In this document: positions 10,584 through 63,676 of the stretch, in pieces
How the letters are laid out: each line of letters opens with the position of its first letter
Position numbering within the stretch: the first letter of the stretch is position 1
Assembly: GCA_902593285.1 (NCBI GenBank)
Contig: CACJHW010000002.1
Span: forward strand, 124,001-188,000
Source: an uncultured Pelagibacteraceae bacterium
Lineage (GTDB): Bacteria; Pseudomonadota; Alphaproteobacteria; Pelagibacterales; Pelagibacteraceae
Direction: 5' to 3'
Length of the DNA: 64,000 nucleotides
Notes under the pieces: model-generated
Seen by the model: only the letters and a program-made list of their open reading frames with translations
The model's database searches: none
Told to the model about the DNA's origin: nothing
Position numbers and translations under genes: made by a program

Positions 10584-11650
10584 TTTTTAGAAATTAATCT
10601 TTGTCTTAGATAATCTATAGGATAAGTTCGTCCATTTATATCACAGTGCCAAAAAGTCCATCCGTTGCAACTTTCAGCTCCTAAAATAGTAGCCGCAACT
10701 TTGTGTATAGAACCCTCTGCTTGATTATGTTTTATACTGCCATCAGCCATAATTCTGGCCGTTATTTTTTTCTTATTATCAAAAATATTAGTTCCAGGTT
10801 TAATTATTCCAAGCTCAACTAATGAACCAAAAGGAATTCTTGGTTTTGATCTATTATTTTTTAGCGTATCTAATAAATCGTCTTCAATAGGCTTTGTAGT
10901 TTTTATACGTTGCTCAGCAGCTTTAAAATAATTTTTTTCTTTTTCTATTCCGAAATAATTTCTCCCTAGTTTTTTTGCTACTGTAGCTGTTGTTCCTGAT
11001 CCTAAAAAAGGATCAAGTATCAGGTCATTTTTATTTGATGTAGCTAGTAAAATTCTATGTAATAGTGCTTCTGGTTTTTGTGTTGAGTGAATTTTTTTTC
11101 CATCCTTTTTAAGTCTTTCAGAACCGTTGCATATTGGAAGATCCCAATTAGATCTCATTTGAAGATCATCATTTAAACATTTTAAAGATTGATAATTAAA
11201 TGTGTATTTTGATTTCTCACTTTTAGAAGCCCATATTAAAGTTTCATGAGCGTTAGTAAATCGTGTACCTCTAAAGTTTGGCATTGGATTATTTTTATTC
11301 CAAATAACATCATTTAAAATCCAGAAACCTAGATTTTGTACTGCTGTGCCAACTCTAAAAATATTATGGTAGCTTCCTATTACCCAAATAGCTCCATCTT
11401 TTTTTAAAATTCTTTTACATTCACTAAGCCATTCATAGGTGAAATCATCATATTTTTTAAAATTTTCAAATTGATCCCACTTATCATTTACCGCACTAAC
11501 CTTTGATCTGTCGGGTCTAGTTAATTCACTTTTTAATTGTAAGTTGTAAGGAGGATCAGCAAAAATTAAATCAAAAGTTTCACGTGGAATTTTTTTTAAT
11601 TCTTCGAGACTATCTCCATTAATTATTTTATTTTTGAAATCAGTTTTCAT
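10580..11650 (-). CDS. ccrM: CcrM-type adenine-N6 DNA methyltransferase (GANTC)
   Basis: Orphan, cell-cycle DNA methyltransferase predicted to methylate adenine in GANTC. The 356 residues show the beta-class order: catalytic DPPY at residues 32-35 near the N-terminus, then the AdoMet motif LDPFLGSGTTATVAK at about 218. The C-terminal extension typical of CcrM is present (GSLVELGIIKPGT, then ITARIMADGSIKH, and GAESCNGWTFWHCD). No restriction endonuclease is adjacent, which fits a regulatory rather than defence role. The 104-bp gap upstream contains three GANTC sites. In Caulobacter ccrM is regulated by methylation of its own promoter, and the same could hold here. Confidence 0.93.
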   Translation of the reverse strand: MKTDFKNKIINGDSLEELKKIPRETFDLIFADPPYNLQLKSELTRPDRSKVSAVNDKWDQFENFKKYDDFTYEWLSECKRILKKDGAIWVIGSYHNIFRVGTAVQNLGFWILNDVIWNKNNPMPNFRGTRFTNAHETLIWASKSEKSKYTFNYQSLKCLNDDLQMRSNWDLPICNGSERLKKDGKKIHSTQKPEALLHRILLATSNKNDLILDPFLGSGTTATVAKKLGRNYFGIEKEKNYFKAAEQRIKTTKPIEDDLLDTLKNNRSKPRIPFGSLVELGIIKPGTNIFDNKKKITARIMADGSIKHNQAEGSIHKVAATILGAESCNGWTFWHCDINGRTYPIDYLRQRLISKN

Positions 11651-11754
11651 TTGTAAATATTAATTAGACTCCAAATGGATTCTTCGGTCAACCTGAGATT
11701 GAAAAATTTGGATTCGATTAGTGTTTCTAAATTACAAGGTAACTAGATGTAGTG
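11651..11754 (-). promoter_or_regulatory. ccrM upstream region with three GANTC sites
   Basis: GANTC occurs at 11667-11671 (GACTC), 11678-11682 (GATTC) and 11711-11715 (GATTC), all in the 104 bp between rnhB and ccrM. At the base composition of this DNA one site is expected roughly every 350-400 bp, so three within 49 bp is a clear cluster. This is probably the ccrM promoter with methylation-sensitive control. No clear terminator hairpin for rnhB was found in the gap. Confidence 0.6.
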
Positions 11755-59300: not shown

Positions 59301-59789
59301 TTAAAAATAGTTTTTATTAAACTTTAAGTTATATAATTTATACAAGCTTTCAAAAATTGTTGAGAATAAAAATGTTGAAATTAAACTGTAACCAAAAAAA
59401 GGTAACGCTAAGATATAGCAACTTAAAATACCACCTAAGCTATACCCATAACTGCCTCCCAACCAAACTCCAAAATTAGTTATTAGAAAAAAAATTACAG
59501 CCCCAGTAAGTGCGCCTGTTAATCTAAATAAAAAAGATTTATTAAAGTATCTAGATAATAAACCGATGATTACTACACTGCCCCACGTAAATAAGATTGT
59601 AGAATGAAAACCAATAATTAAATCAGTTACAAAGAAAGCAACCAAAACACTCGGGATATACCTTGAGCCTAAAGCTGCTGGAACATAAAAACTTAATGCT
59701 ATTAAGCTGGTAAAGTTTGGAGGATGAGGAATAAATCTGGTTAAAGATAAAGCTAAAAAAATACCTACTGATATTTTTAAATAATTCAT
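59301..59789 (-). CDS. DUF6580-like membrane protein, candidate cobalamin/precursor transporter component
   Basis: 162 residues from the ATG at 59787-59789 (a TTG three codons upstream is open). Five to six membrane helices; motifs TRFIPHPPNFTSLIALSF, TDLIIGFHSTILF, and NFGVWLGG followed by a CYILALPFFGYSL helix fit the DUF6580 pattern as I recall it. It is 39 bp after the riboswitch-controlled btuB gene on the same strand, so it is likely in the B12 regulon. Size and topology resemble ECF-type substrate-binding proteins; this is inference only. Confidence 0.65.
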   Translation of the reverse strand: MNYLKISVGIFLALSLTRFIPHPPNFTSLIALSFYVPAALGSRYIPSVLVAFFVTDLIIGFHSTILFTWGSVVIIGLLSRYFNKSFLFRLTGALTGAVIFFLITNFGVWLGGSYGYSLGGILSCYILALPFFGYSLISTFLFSTIFESLYKLYNLKFNKNYF

Positions 59790-59828: not shown

Positions 59829-61739
59829 CTAATAAATCTTTCTTATTCCAAAATTTATGTTTCTACCCATTGAAGAATACATAAATGCCTGTTCATAATT
59901 ATTTTTAAACACATTATCTATATCCAAATAGATTTCACCATAATTTAATAAATCATATTTCAAGCTATAGTCGACAATAAAATAATCTTCTAAAATTACA
60001 TCTGAGAAGCTGTTATTTCCATTCCCATAATCTCTCACTTCTCCGTTATATTTTAAAGATAAAATGTTTTTTAAATTACTCTTTGTTTTGAGACTCAAAT
60101 TAATATTTGAAGAATGCCTTGGCACTCTAACCATTGACTCATCTATACAGCTTGTACTTCCAACATTTGGATCATCACAATCTGCTCCATCATGTGTATC
60201 AGTATAATTATAATTTAAAGAAATATTAAATTTTTCCGATTTTTTGTAAAAGGCCTCTATTTCGATACCTTTAGACTCAATTTTAGCATTAGTATTTTGA
60301 ATTTTCCAACCATTTGATTGCCATCCTTCTAAAGCATCATCATATTCAATTTTATACAAAGATATTATTATGTCAGTATTAATTCCATCTAATTTTGTCT
60401 CATATCCTATATCAAAACTTTTGCTTCTTTCAGGAGTTAAATTCTCTTTTTTAGCAACAGTTGTTCCATAGAAGTAATCATAAAGTGTAGGGTATCTTAA
60501 ACCAGTTCCATAACTTGATCTAATTTTAGAATTTCCATCTAGTTTATAAGCCATAGTTATCCTGCCAGTATTGTATGCTCCAGCAGTGGTGTGATCATCA
60601 CGTCTTAAACCAAGAGTAGTATACAAATTTTCTTTAGGTCTAAATTGTAAATCTAAAAATTGGGAATATATAGCTTCATCACTCTCCAGATAGTCTGTTG
60701 GCCAATCCTTTTGAAATTTTGCATTATCAAATTCATTTTCTAGGCCAAAAACAATTTTAGTATCTAAATCAAAATTATAATTTCCGATATAATTTATAGA
60801 GTCTCTATATCCATAATAATTTTTTGGATTATTTAAATAGCTTTTAGTTGCTCTTTCTATTGCAGTATAACTGTAGGAAAAAGTTTGGTTAAATTTATCT
60901 TTTTTCGAAGTTAAACTCAAGTTATACGATAGTTCGTCATCATCTGTTGAGTTATTAGCATCTGTTCTACCAGATGTTACTTCATCGTAATTAAGAAAAG
61001 AATCACTATATCTTAAACTTCCATTTAAAATACTATCATTATTTATTTGATATGAATAATTTGTTATTAAACTTTCATTTTTATAGCTGTCATCATCATT
61101 TGTGCTTTTCTCATCATTCATAGCTGAGATACCATCAGTGTTAAATTTATTTATTCCTATAAAATAACTATGATTTCCATAATTGTTTCCAGTTGAAAAA
61201 TCTAAGTTATTAGTTCCATTTGATCCACCGCTTACATTAATTTCTGTTTCTTTATAATTGCCTTTTTTGGTAAAAATATTAATTACTCCCCCTATTGCAC
61301 CACTTCCATATATTGAACTATTAGAACCTCTGAGTATCTCTACTTTGTCTATTGACGATGTCATGATATTTGAAAAATAAAATGAGTTATCACTTGAAGA
61401 TGGATCTGACATTTTAACTCCATCAATGTAAACTGTTGAGTATCTTTTGGGTAGACCTCTTAGTTGTACCCCAGATACAGTCCCATAGCCACCCGATCTA
61501 AAATAATTCATGCCGGGTAAATTATCATTTAAAACTTCACCCAAAAAAAATTTTCCATTTCCTTGTATCTCTTTATTATTCAAAGATGTAACAGATGTAC
61601 CTACTGTACTATATGATTGGTCTATTTTACTTGGCGCTATAACTATTATAGGAATATCTTTTGCATAAACTCTTACCGACTCAAAAGAAATTAAAAATAA
61701 TATTAGACTTAAAAATAATATTCTCACTAACAACCTCAT
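59829..61739 (-). CDS. btuB: BtuB-like TonB-dependent outer-membrane receptor
   Basis: 636 residues. The signal peptide ends near SVRVYA (about residue 26), then a TonB-box-like DIPIIVIAPSK. The plug domain includes PGMNYFRSGGYGTVSGVQLRGL, and DKVEILRGSNSSIYGSGAIGGVINIFTKKG. A long beta-barrel of alternating segments ends in an aromatic residue (NFGIRKIY), as needed for insertion. The upstream cobalamin riboswitch makes B12 or a related corrinoid the likely substrate. No BtuCDF, TonB or ExbBD gene is in the window. Confidence 0.88.
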   Translation of the reverse strand: MRLLVRILFLSLILFLISFESVRVYAKDIPIIVIAPSKIDQSYSTVGTSVTSLNNKEIQGNGKFFLGEVLNDNLPGMNYFRSGGYGTVSGVQLRGLPKRYSTVYIDGVKMSDPSSSDNSFYFSNIMTSSIDKVEILRGSNSSIYGSGAIGGVINIFTKKGNYKETEINVSGGSNGTNNLDFSTGNNYGNHSYFIGINKFNTDGISAMNDEKSTNDDDSYKNESLITNYSYQINNDSILNGSLRYSDSFLNYDEVTSGRTDANNSTDDDELSYNLSLTSKKDKFNQTFSYSYTAIERATKSYLNNPKNYYGYRDSINYIGNYNFDLDTKIVFGLENEFDNAKFQKDWPTDYLESDEAIYSQFLDLQFRPKENLYTTLGLRRDDHTTAGAYNTGRITMAYKLDGNSKIRSSYGTGLRYPTLYDYFYGTTVAKKENLTPERSKSFDIGYETKLDGINTDIIISLYKIEYDDALEGWQSNGWKIQNTNAKIESKGIEIEAFYKKSEKFNISLNYNYTDTHDGADCDDPNVGSTSCIDESMVRVPRHSSNINLSLKTKSNLKNILSLKYNGEVRDYGNGNNSFSDVILEDYFIVDYSLKYDLLNYGEIYLDIDNVFKNNYEQAFMYSSMGRNINFGIRKIY

Positions 61740-61802: not shown

Positions 61803-61935
61803 AATTGCAGAATTAGACTTTTCCTGGCCTTCATTCAACAGTGGACTCTACTGGGTGGCACTCGGACTTTACCGTTGCAGGAACAGCTAATGAATTTCAC
61901 ATTAATTCCCCACCATGTTTCAGTATAGAAATATT
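61803..61935 (-). ncRNA. Cobalamin (adenosylcobalamin-type) riboswitch
   Basis: On the minus strand the conserved core appears in order: GGTGGGGAA (61906-61914), GTGAAATTC, AGCTGTTCCTGCAACGGTAA (CCTGCAACGGTAA at 61869-61881), AGTCCGAGTGCCACCC (B12 box; GAGTGCCACCC at 61853-61863), and GGCCAGGAAAAGTC (61816-61829). This matches the cobalamin aptamer of the class I kind. It lies in the leader of btuB. When B12 is bound, such switches shut expression off. Confidence 0.9.
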
Positions 61936-62053: not shown

Positions 62054-63676
62054 ATGAAAGTAATTAGCAAACTAGAAAACATCAAAACGCAGAACGAGAC
62101 AGAAGACTATAAAAATAAATTTCATGTTACTCTTATTAGAATACCTATAGTCTCTGCTGCTGGAAGTTTATCATTCTCCTCAATAGTTCCACCAATTACT
62201 TTAGCAATTTTGTCGGCTAATCTTAGAGCTGCAAATATTGCTGTAACAAATATTGATGGTGTAGGAGAAAATTTGAATAATATTGCTCCTGTTCCGAGAA
62301 ATCCAAAGTTTAATTATCAAGGGCTTTCAACAGATGAAATTATTAAGAGAATTCCTTTTAGTACTAATTTAATTGCAGTTTCATGTATGTTTTCAAATGA
62401 ATGGCCTTTTACCAGAGATGTTATTAAATTAATCAAAAAGGCTCGACCAGAAGTTCCAATAATTGCAGGAGGTGAACATGTTTCTGCACTTCCAGAATAT
62501 TCTTTGAAAGATTGTCCCGAACTAGAATTTATTGCAATTGGGGAAGGTGATGAAACAATTACAGAGATAGCCAATGCCTATAAATTAAAAACTCCCATAG
62601 AAAAAATTGATGGTATTGCGTATATTAAAAATAACGAGTTAATTAAAACTTCAAAAAGAAAACGTCTTCGTACTATAGATATGCTGCCTTGGCCAGCATG
62701 GGATTTAGTTCCACTAGAAAATTATTTTGAATTAAGATCTTCTCATGGTCCATATAGGGGCAGAACAATGCCAATAATTGCCAGTAGAGGATGTCCATAT
62801 GATTGTTCTTTTTGTTCTAACGCAGATATGTATGGAAGGAGTTATTTTACAAGAGATGTAAAATGTATAGTTGATGAAATAGAATTTTATATAGAGAAAT
62901 ACAATATCAAATGTATAGATTTTTTTGATTTAACAATATTTATTAATCGTAAATGGACCATAGATTTTTGTAAAGAATTGATAAAAAGGAATATTAAAAT
63001 TGTGTGGCAGGTTTCAGGAGGAACAAGGACAGAGCCAATTGATGAAGAGGTAATAAGTTATCTCAAAAAAGCTGGATGTGAATATTTGTGCTTTGCTCCA
63101 GAGACAGGATCAAAGGAAGTTTTAAAAATGATAAGAAAAAGATGTGATTTAGATCGTATGGTTTATTTATTTAAAATTGCAAAAAAATATAAATTAGACA
63201 CTAGGGCCAATTTAATAATTGGCTTTCCAAATGAAACACGAAAACAAATTTTAGAAACTATTTTTTTTCAAATTAAATTAGCATTTTTAGGTGTTTTAGA
63301 CGCACCAGTTTTTATATTTAGCCCGTACCCGGGCACAGATGATTTTAGACTATTGCAAAAAAAAGGAGTTATAGCAAAAGATGCTGATTTAAAAGATGAA
63401 TTTTTCGAAGGTCTAGGTGTAGAAGGAAAGAAAAAAAAGGAACGCGTTTGTGAAGCAGTTGGTAATTCTGAATTAAAATTCTATCAATTTTTTGGCATGA
63501 TAATGTTTTATGGAATTTATTATATAAAGCATCCACTTTTTTTATTTAAGTTTGTGAAAAATTTATTTGTAGGTAATATTTCTCATTCAGTATTTGAGCA
63601 TAGAATTATACAAGCTTTAAGAAATTTCTTTATGAAATCAGGTATAAAAAAATTGAATATTAAAGAAAATAAATAG
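62054..63676 (+). CDS. B12-binding-domain radical SAM protein
   Basis: 540 residues. The N-terminal region (about 25-175) has the B12-binding Rossmann pattern: PPITLAILSANLRAANIAVTNID, VPIIAGGEHVSALPE, FIAIGEGDETITEI. The radical SAM domain has the 4Fe-4S cluster motif C247-P-Y-D-C251-S-F-C254 in ASRGCPYDCSFCSNA, followed by CLCFAPETGS-like and NLIIGFPNET elements. The C-terminal 100 residues contain a hydrophobic region (FFGMIMFYGIYYIKHPLFLF). These enzymes methylate or rearrange unactivated carbons. The substrate is unknown; divergence from a B12 uptake operon supports B12 dependence. Confidence 0.82.
   Translation: MKVISKLENIKTQNETEDYKNKFHVTLIRIPIVSAAGSLSFSSIVPPITLAILSANLRAANIAVTNIDGVGENLNNIAPVPRNPKFNYQGLSTDEIIKRIPFSTNLIAVSCMFSNEWPFTRDVIKLIKKARPEVPIIAGGEHVSALPEYSLKDCPELEFIAIGEGDETITEIANAYKLKTPIEKIDGIAYIKNNELIKTSKRKRLRTIDMLPWPAWDLVPLENYFELRSSHGPYRGRTMPIIASRGCPYDCSFCSNADMYGRSYFTRDVKCIVDEIEFYIEKYNIKCIDFFDLTIFINRKWTIDFCKELIKRNIKIVWQVSGGTRTEPIDEEVISYLKKAGCEYLCFAPETGSKEVLKMIRKRCDLDRMVYLFKIAKKYKLDTRANLIIGFPNETRKQILETIFFQIKLAFLGVLDAPVFIFSPYPGTDDFRLLQKKGVIAKDADLKDEFFEGLGVEGKKKKERVCEAVGNSELKFYQFFGMIMFYGIYYIKHPLFLFKFVKNLFVGNISHSVFEHRIIQALRNFFMKSGIKKLNIKENK

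Follow-up and report, generated by a model that had tools for sequence, protein, structure and literature searches.

Many Gram-negative bacteria have BtuB and no BtuCDF (PMC6072759), and how the vitamin crosses the inner membrane of many that are auxotrophic for B12 is an open question. The same question is raised by a locus in the genome of a SAR11 bacterium (Pelagibacteraceae; about 1.04 Mb, 79% complete), where a gene for a small membrane protein of the DUF6580 family follows that of a BtuB-like receptor. The window referred to below is the whole stretch of DNA analysed, 64,000 nucleotides in length; the features of interest in it are the following.

59301..59789, minus strand: DUF6580 (PF20221) gene, an open reading frame with an ATG start and 162 codons; proposed inner-membrane corrinoid importer
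59463..59477, minus strand: codons 105-109, NFGVW, at the end of helix 5; Asn105 and Trp109 near-universal
59604..59624, minus strand: codons 56-62, D56 to H62, at the end of helix 3 and in loop L3
59709..59738, minus strand: codons 18-27, RFIPHPPNFT, loop L1, near-invariant in SAR11; proposed periplasmic substrate-site motif
59829..61739, minus strand: BtuB-like TonB-dependent receptor, 636 aa; proposed outer-membrane step
61848..61926, minus strand: AdoCbl-II (type II cobalamin) riboswitch RF01689, preceding btuB-DUF6580
62054..63676, plus strand: radical SAM enzyme with a B12-binding domain, encoded divergently from the riboswitch and operon; proposed consumer of the imported B12

A preliminary description of this DNA had taken the product of the first gene for a DUF6580-like protein of 162 residues and five to six helices, encoded downstream of btuB under the same riboswitch and with no BtuCDF nearby, and each of these points stands. 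The protein encoded at 59301-59789 on the minus strand (162 aa, starting MNYLKISVGIFLALSLTRFIPHPPNFTS...) matches PF20221 in a Pfam profile search with an E-value of 5e-28 and a score of 98.8 bits (curated cut-off 27); this is its sole family match in Pfam, there is no FecCD-type permease signature, and six transmembrane helices are predicted. The receptor gene (59829-61739, minus strand) lies upstream across a gap of 39 bp, and the best NCBIfam models for its product are TonB-B12 and BtuB, both scoring under their curated cut-offs. Ahead of the receptor, the Rfam covariance model for the AdoCbl-II riboswitch scores 94.6 bits against a gathering score of 36.5 (E 6e-23). No BtuCDF gene was found at the locus. 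Elsewhere in the window, at 11647-11715 on the minus strand, Rfam gives a match to the bablM sRNA (73.3 bits).

To what extent is DUF6580 tied to B12 in other SAR11 genomes? The family is present in 27 of a set of 61, which comprises 37 genomes of the window's genus (five carriers) and 24 from a second family within the order (22 carriers), the window's own genome included. Within the genus, where the DUF6580 proteins are 57-67% identical across genomes and conserved far beyond chance, a type-II cobalamin riboswitch was found in all five carriers versus none of the 32 non-carriers (Fisher p 2e-6), and a B12-binding domain scored over the cut-off in 5/5 carriers versus 1/32 non-carriers; in all five carriers this domain belongs to a radical SAM enzyme adjoining the operon. 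The five loci have differing surroundings and receptors that fall to about 25% identity, and the order riboswitch-receptor-DUF6580 is kept in each of them. The type of this radical SAM enzyme changes from locus to locus, and its neighbours are variable (window 62054-63676; L036, L037, L038 and L039). A further 80 SAR11 loci are those that matched the query best and hence do not represent the family at random; among the 69 with enough upstream sequence, a riboswitch lies within 2.7 kb upstream in 60 and the receptor directly ahead of DUF6580 in 66. A radical SAM gene occurs within 4.5 kb in 42 of the 54 loci of this best-matching set that have long flanks, and 51 of the 53 radical SAM enzymes tested from SAR11 loci carry a B12-binding domain.

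The loci checked in the second SAR11 family have the long cobalamin riboswitch RF00174. Its genomes carry B12-binding mutases, the one checked being a methylmalonyl-CoA mutase with MeaB, and an adenosyltransferase was found in 21 of the 24; searches for adenosyltransferases of two types found neither in the window's genus. Riboswitch class, adenosyltransferase and B12 enzyme thus co-vary between the two SAR11 families (f1 and f2), with a type-II switch, no adenosyltransferase and a radical SAM enzyme on one side versus RF00174, an adenosyltransferase and a mutase on the other. According to a review (PMC10907184), peripheral domains set the choice of riboswitches between adenosyl- and methylcobalamin, and the structure of the metagenomic env8 switch was determined with hydroxocobalamin; consistent with these reports, the type-II switch in SAR11 may sense a non-adenosyl cobalamin.

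What kind of protein DUF6580 might be was approached through structure prediction. A first model, built on 13 sequences, reached a pLDDT of 83 and had only S-components as top structural matches, BtuM being absent among the matches listed; a deeper AlphaFold model, built on 51 sequences, reached a pLDDT of 90.7 and a pTM of 0.85. With the latter the top 17 rows are all S-components (Z 10.3-13.6) and the next, unrelated row scores 6.6; the first of them, which appeared with the deeper alignment only, is BtuM with bound cyanocobalamin (PDB 8c7p; Z 13.6 over 153 residues, 2.9 A). We note that Foldseek E-values exceed 0.1, that the strong Z-scores come from the second aligner only and that helical bundles may score high by chance, although the gap in Z and the uniformity of the top rows argue that the match is real. 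DUF6580 is therefore predicted to have the six-helix fold of an ECF S-component, the comparison proposed in the preliminary description having placed BtuM first for the better of the two models. Sequence profiles of the 13 and the 51 members matched no PDB chain at E-values up to 10, BtuM being among the proteins in PDB.

The pattern of conservation is suggestive of a binding site. R/K18, H22, N25, D56, N105, W109, Y114, P130 and F131 are universal or near-universal among DUF6580 members; in the alignment of members D56 is universal, while H62 is invariant in SAR11 and mostly His or Tyr elsewhere. Loops L1, L3 and L5, with the positions next to them, hold most of the best conserved residues and face away from the Lys/Arg-rich L2, L4 and C-terminus, which by the positive-inside rule would place the L1/L3/L5 side in the periplasm. 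S-components bind their substrate on the periplasmic side. R18, H22, N25, D56, H62, N105 and W109 may thus cluster in a pocket formed by these three loops, with H22 and H62 as candidate cobalt ligands. Divergent members in the alignment are without parts of the L1 motif.

The preliminary description had put DUF6580 forward as the candidate for the inner-membrane step provided that the genome has no BtuCDF, and had proposed that btuCDF and ECF modules be sought genome-wide. Our search in SAR11 covered FecCD/BtuC permeases and EcfT/CbiQ. No true BtuC-type (FecCD) permease was found in the 61 SAR11 genomes, whose FecCD matches are weak and partial; this is the case for the sole FecCD match of the window's own genome (79% complete), and a one-contig SAR11 carrier rated 100% complete (G365) has zero FecCD matches. 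The FecCD matches in SAR11 and in most gammaproteobacterial carriers resembled BtuC at first sight and were then rejected, the ones that were checked being ABC-3/ZnuB permeases. EcfT/CbiQ was found in none of the 61 SAR11 genomes, whereas 10 of 14 control genomes gave a match. Neither a true BtuC nor an EcfT was thus found in the window's genome or its 60 relatives. From the operon, the riboswitch, the predicted fold, the co-occurrence and the absence of BtuC and EcfT, all of them computed, we infer that the proposal, with DUF6580 as an importer of corrinoids, is very probably right for SAR11 and for the B12-linked members of the family.

Most S-components use an ECF module, and a protein with their fold might accordingly need an ATPase module, be it an unrecognised T-like protein or the shared subunits of a different ABC transporter; SAR11 genomes do encode further ABC permeases, ABC-3/ZnuB among them. 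We hold this to be unlikely given the contrast in CbiQ/EcfT between the SAR11 and control genomes, the lack of any ATPase gene seen recurring beside DUF6580 in the loci read, and the annotated phage loci that carry DUF6580 with btuB (see below). BtuM and some BioY proteins, moreover, function without a module (PMC6072759). That DUF6580 works without an ATPase seems fairly probable, if less so than its role in corrinoid import.

Outside SAR11, the family was followed in 370 gammaproteobacterial genomes, their class being inferred from the genomes' relation. DUF6580 occurs in 53 of them and a FecCD permease (E < 1e-30) in 210. The two are almost mutually exclusive: FecCD was found in a single DUF6580 carrier (G476; 1/53) versus 209 of 317 non-carriers (p 1.5e-20, in a test that ignores relatedness), and the swap recurs inside several families, e.g. 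f93, f122, f179, f184, f199, f200, f202 and f211. The FecCD family also includes siderophore permeases, so that the exclusion concerns the family as a whole and not BtuC alone. An exclusion this close to perfect argues that the permease is replaced rather than assisted, and bears in this way on another possibility, namely that DUF6580 only assists in the uptake or handling of B12 at the inner membrane (for instance as a sensor, or as a TonB or adenosylation helper) while another protein carries B12. Orphan genes for a BtuF-like protein and an adenosyltransferase in some gammaproteobacterial loci are in line with such a role, as is the occurrence of S-component-like folds in receptors (PMC11109136); even so, with the exclusion as it stands and no other inner-membrane candidate seen recurring in the SAR11 loci, we consider it improbable, and DUF6580 itself remains for us the probable carrier.

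Forty gammaproteobacterial loci from some 30 families were sampled. A cobalamin riboswitch is present in 14 of them, and a riboswitch or a B12 gene lies within about 4 kb in approximately 21, the recurrent neighbours being BtuB, cobalamin adenosyltransferase, a BtuF-like protein and TonB. In about half of the 40, no gene linked to B12 lies at a distance of up to about 4 kb, and some of the DUF6580 proteins of these loci are divergent. The adjacency to cobalamin riboswitches on which the preliminary description had asked for a count thus holds for SAR11 and for part of the gammaproteobacterial loci, about half of the latter lying outside recognisable B12 loci. The family accordingly extends beyond B12 regulons; some members outside B12 loci may do something else, and it is unlikely that every PF20221 member is a corrinoid importer. 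Divergent members with an altered L1 (PHLPN, PHVAN, PHTAN and others) were seen outside B12 loci in L204, L206, L210, L212, L230, L231, L232 and L242, and may have another substrate. Two further neighbours were noted. A ROK-family kinase gene lies between the adenosyltransferase and DUF6580 genes in several gammaproteobacterial B12 operons (L208:3233-4126, L218:3431-4330, L237:3447-4340), and a Diphthami_syn_2 (MJ0570-like) protein recurs beside DUF6580, at times together with BtuF and adenosyltransferase (L166:5252-7978, L223, L225).

DUF6580 is also found in viral sequences. IMG/VR holds at least 93 relatives; among 80 of these, several of which are near-duplicate phage contigs, btuB adjoins DUF6580 in 36 and a type-II riboswitch is present in 18, lying within about 150 nt ahead of DUF6580 itself in 16. 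The phage order is that of a two-gene unit, with the riboswitch directly before DUF6580 and btuB thereafter, which rules out that DUF6580 is a mere passenger behind btuB. In two contigs (L303:4782-7315 and L276:4797-7360) the cassette sits between the terminase large subunit or structural genes and homologues of gp32 and UvsX, and these flanks identify the contigs as genuine T4-like phages. A third phage contig (L363:9445-11833), whose receptor shares 69% identity with the one in L303, has the same DUF6580-btuB pair among different neighbours, which indicates that the cassette moves within phages. At the sensitivity used, no DUF6580 relative was found among INPHARED phages (queried with a phage member) or in a plasmid collection (queried with a gammaproteobacterial member).

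Taken together, the data are consistent with the following mechanism. Energised by TonB, the BtuB-like receptor would move B12 into the periplasm, and DUF6580, as a solitary protein of the S-component type, would bind cobalamin or a close corrinoid in its L1/L3/L5 pocket and release it into the cytoplasm with no ABC ATPase involved, in the way suggested for BtuM; the cobalamin riboswitch would turn expression off. In the SAR11 genome of the window, the likely consumer of B12 would be the adjacent B12-binding radical SAM enzyme. On balance we somewhat favour a broader reading, in which DUF6580 would be a hitherto unrecognised family of ATPase-free, single-protein B12 importers and would have taken the place of BtuCD repeatedly, both in SAR11 and in many Gammaproteobacteria. 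Together with btuB it would travel as a minimal two-gene uptake cassette, reaching variable regions of SAR11 genomes, where it would feed B12-dependent radical SAM enzymes, and also T4-like marine phages, where it would be an auxiliary metabolic module under riboswitch control. If this is correct, one small gene would account for the inner-membrane step of B12 uptake in SAR11, which are among the most abundant bacteria of the ocean, and in a sizeable share of Gammaproteobacteria. It would also suggest why some SAR11 genomes, described as devoid of MetH, import B12, their B12-binding enzyme being the radical SAM enzyme beside the uptake genes. The carriage of the same cassette by phages hints that importing B12 can be of consequence in infections at sea. 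Our literature search found no paper naming DUF6580 and, among the papers listed, none mentioning BtuN; PMC3766115 counts 26 orthologue groups of B12 transport, among which an earlier, unnamed prediction of DUF6580 is possible.

How does DUF6580 compare with known systems? With BtuCDF it would share the step performed, the transfer of B12 from periplasm to cytoplasm behind BtuB, yet the proteins are unrelated and FecCD permeases and DUF6580 almost never occur together. CbrT, FolT, RibU, ThiT and BioY, all of them ECF S-components, have the same predicted fold (Z 9.4-14.3), small size and six helices, but usually operate together with EcfT and a pair of ATPases; the EcfT partner that a complete ECF transporter would have in its genome was found in 0 of the 61 SAR11 genomes. 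The cobalt and nickel S-components CbiM and NikM likewise share the fold (Z 10.6-12.6), and cobalamin riboswitches control cobalt transporters too (PMC3766115), so that DUF6580 might import cobalt, or else cobinamide or another corrinoid precursor, in place of B12. CbiM and NikM serve metal uptake, however, whereas the partner of DUF6580 is a BtuB-like receptor, a kind of protein that takes in corrinoids. SAR11 has been described as auxotrophic for B12 (PMC9296465), and cobalt is of no use for B12 without corrin synthesis. We thus give a cobalt or precursor importer little credence and retain B12 or a close corrinoid as the probable substrate.

The closest parallel is BtuM, which was predicted from its co-localisation with btuB, has the S-component fold and needs no ECF module to function in E. 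coli (PMC6072759). DUF6580 resembles it in its predicted six-helix S-component fold, its gene beside btuB and its presence in genomes without an ECF module, and differs from it in the lack of a detectable sequence relation and in loop L3, where BtuM has an invariant cobalt-ligating Cys80 and DUF6580 has no conserved cysteine, but H62 or a Tyr. C124, located where helix 6 begins, was considered as a BtuM-like cobalt ligand and rejected, since 9 of the 24 gammaproteobacterial members linked to B12 have Ala at this position. Since context and fold agree with BtuM while sequence and the invariant cysteine do not, DUF6580 should not be filed as BtuM and is best filed as a new family that would work like it.
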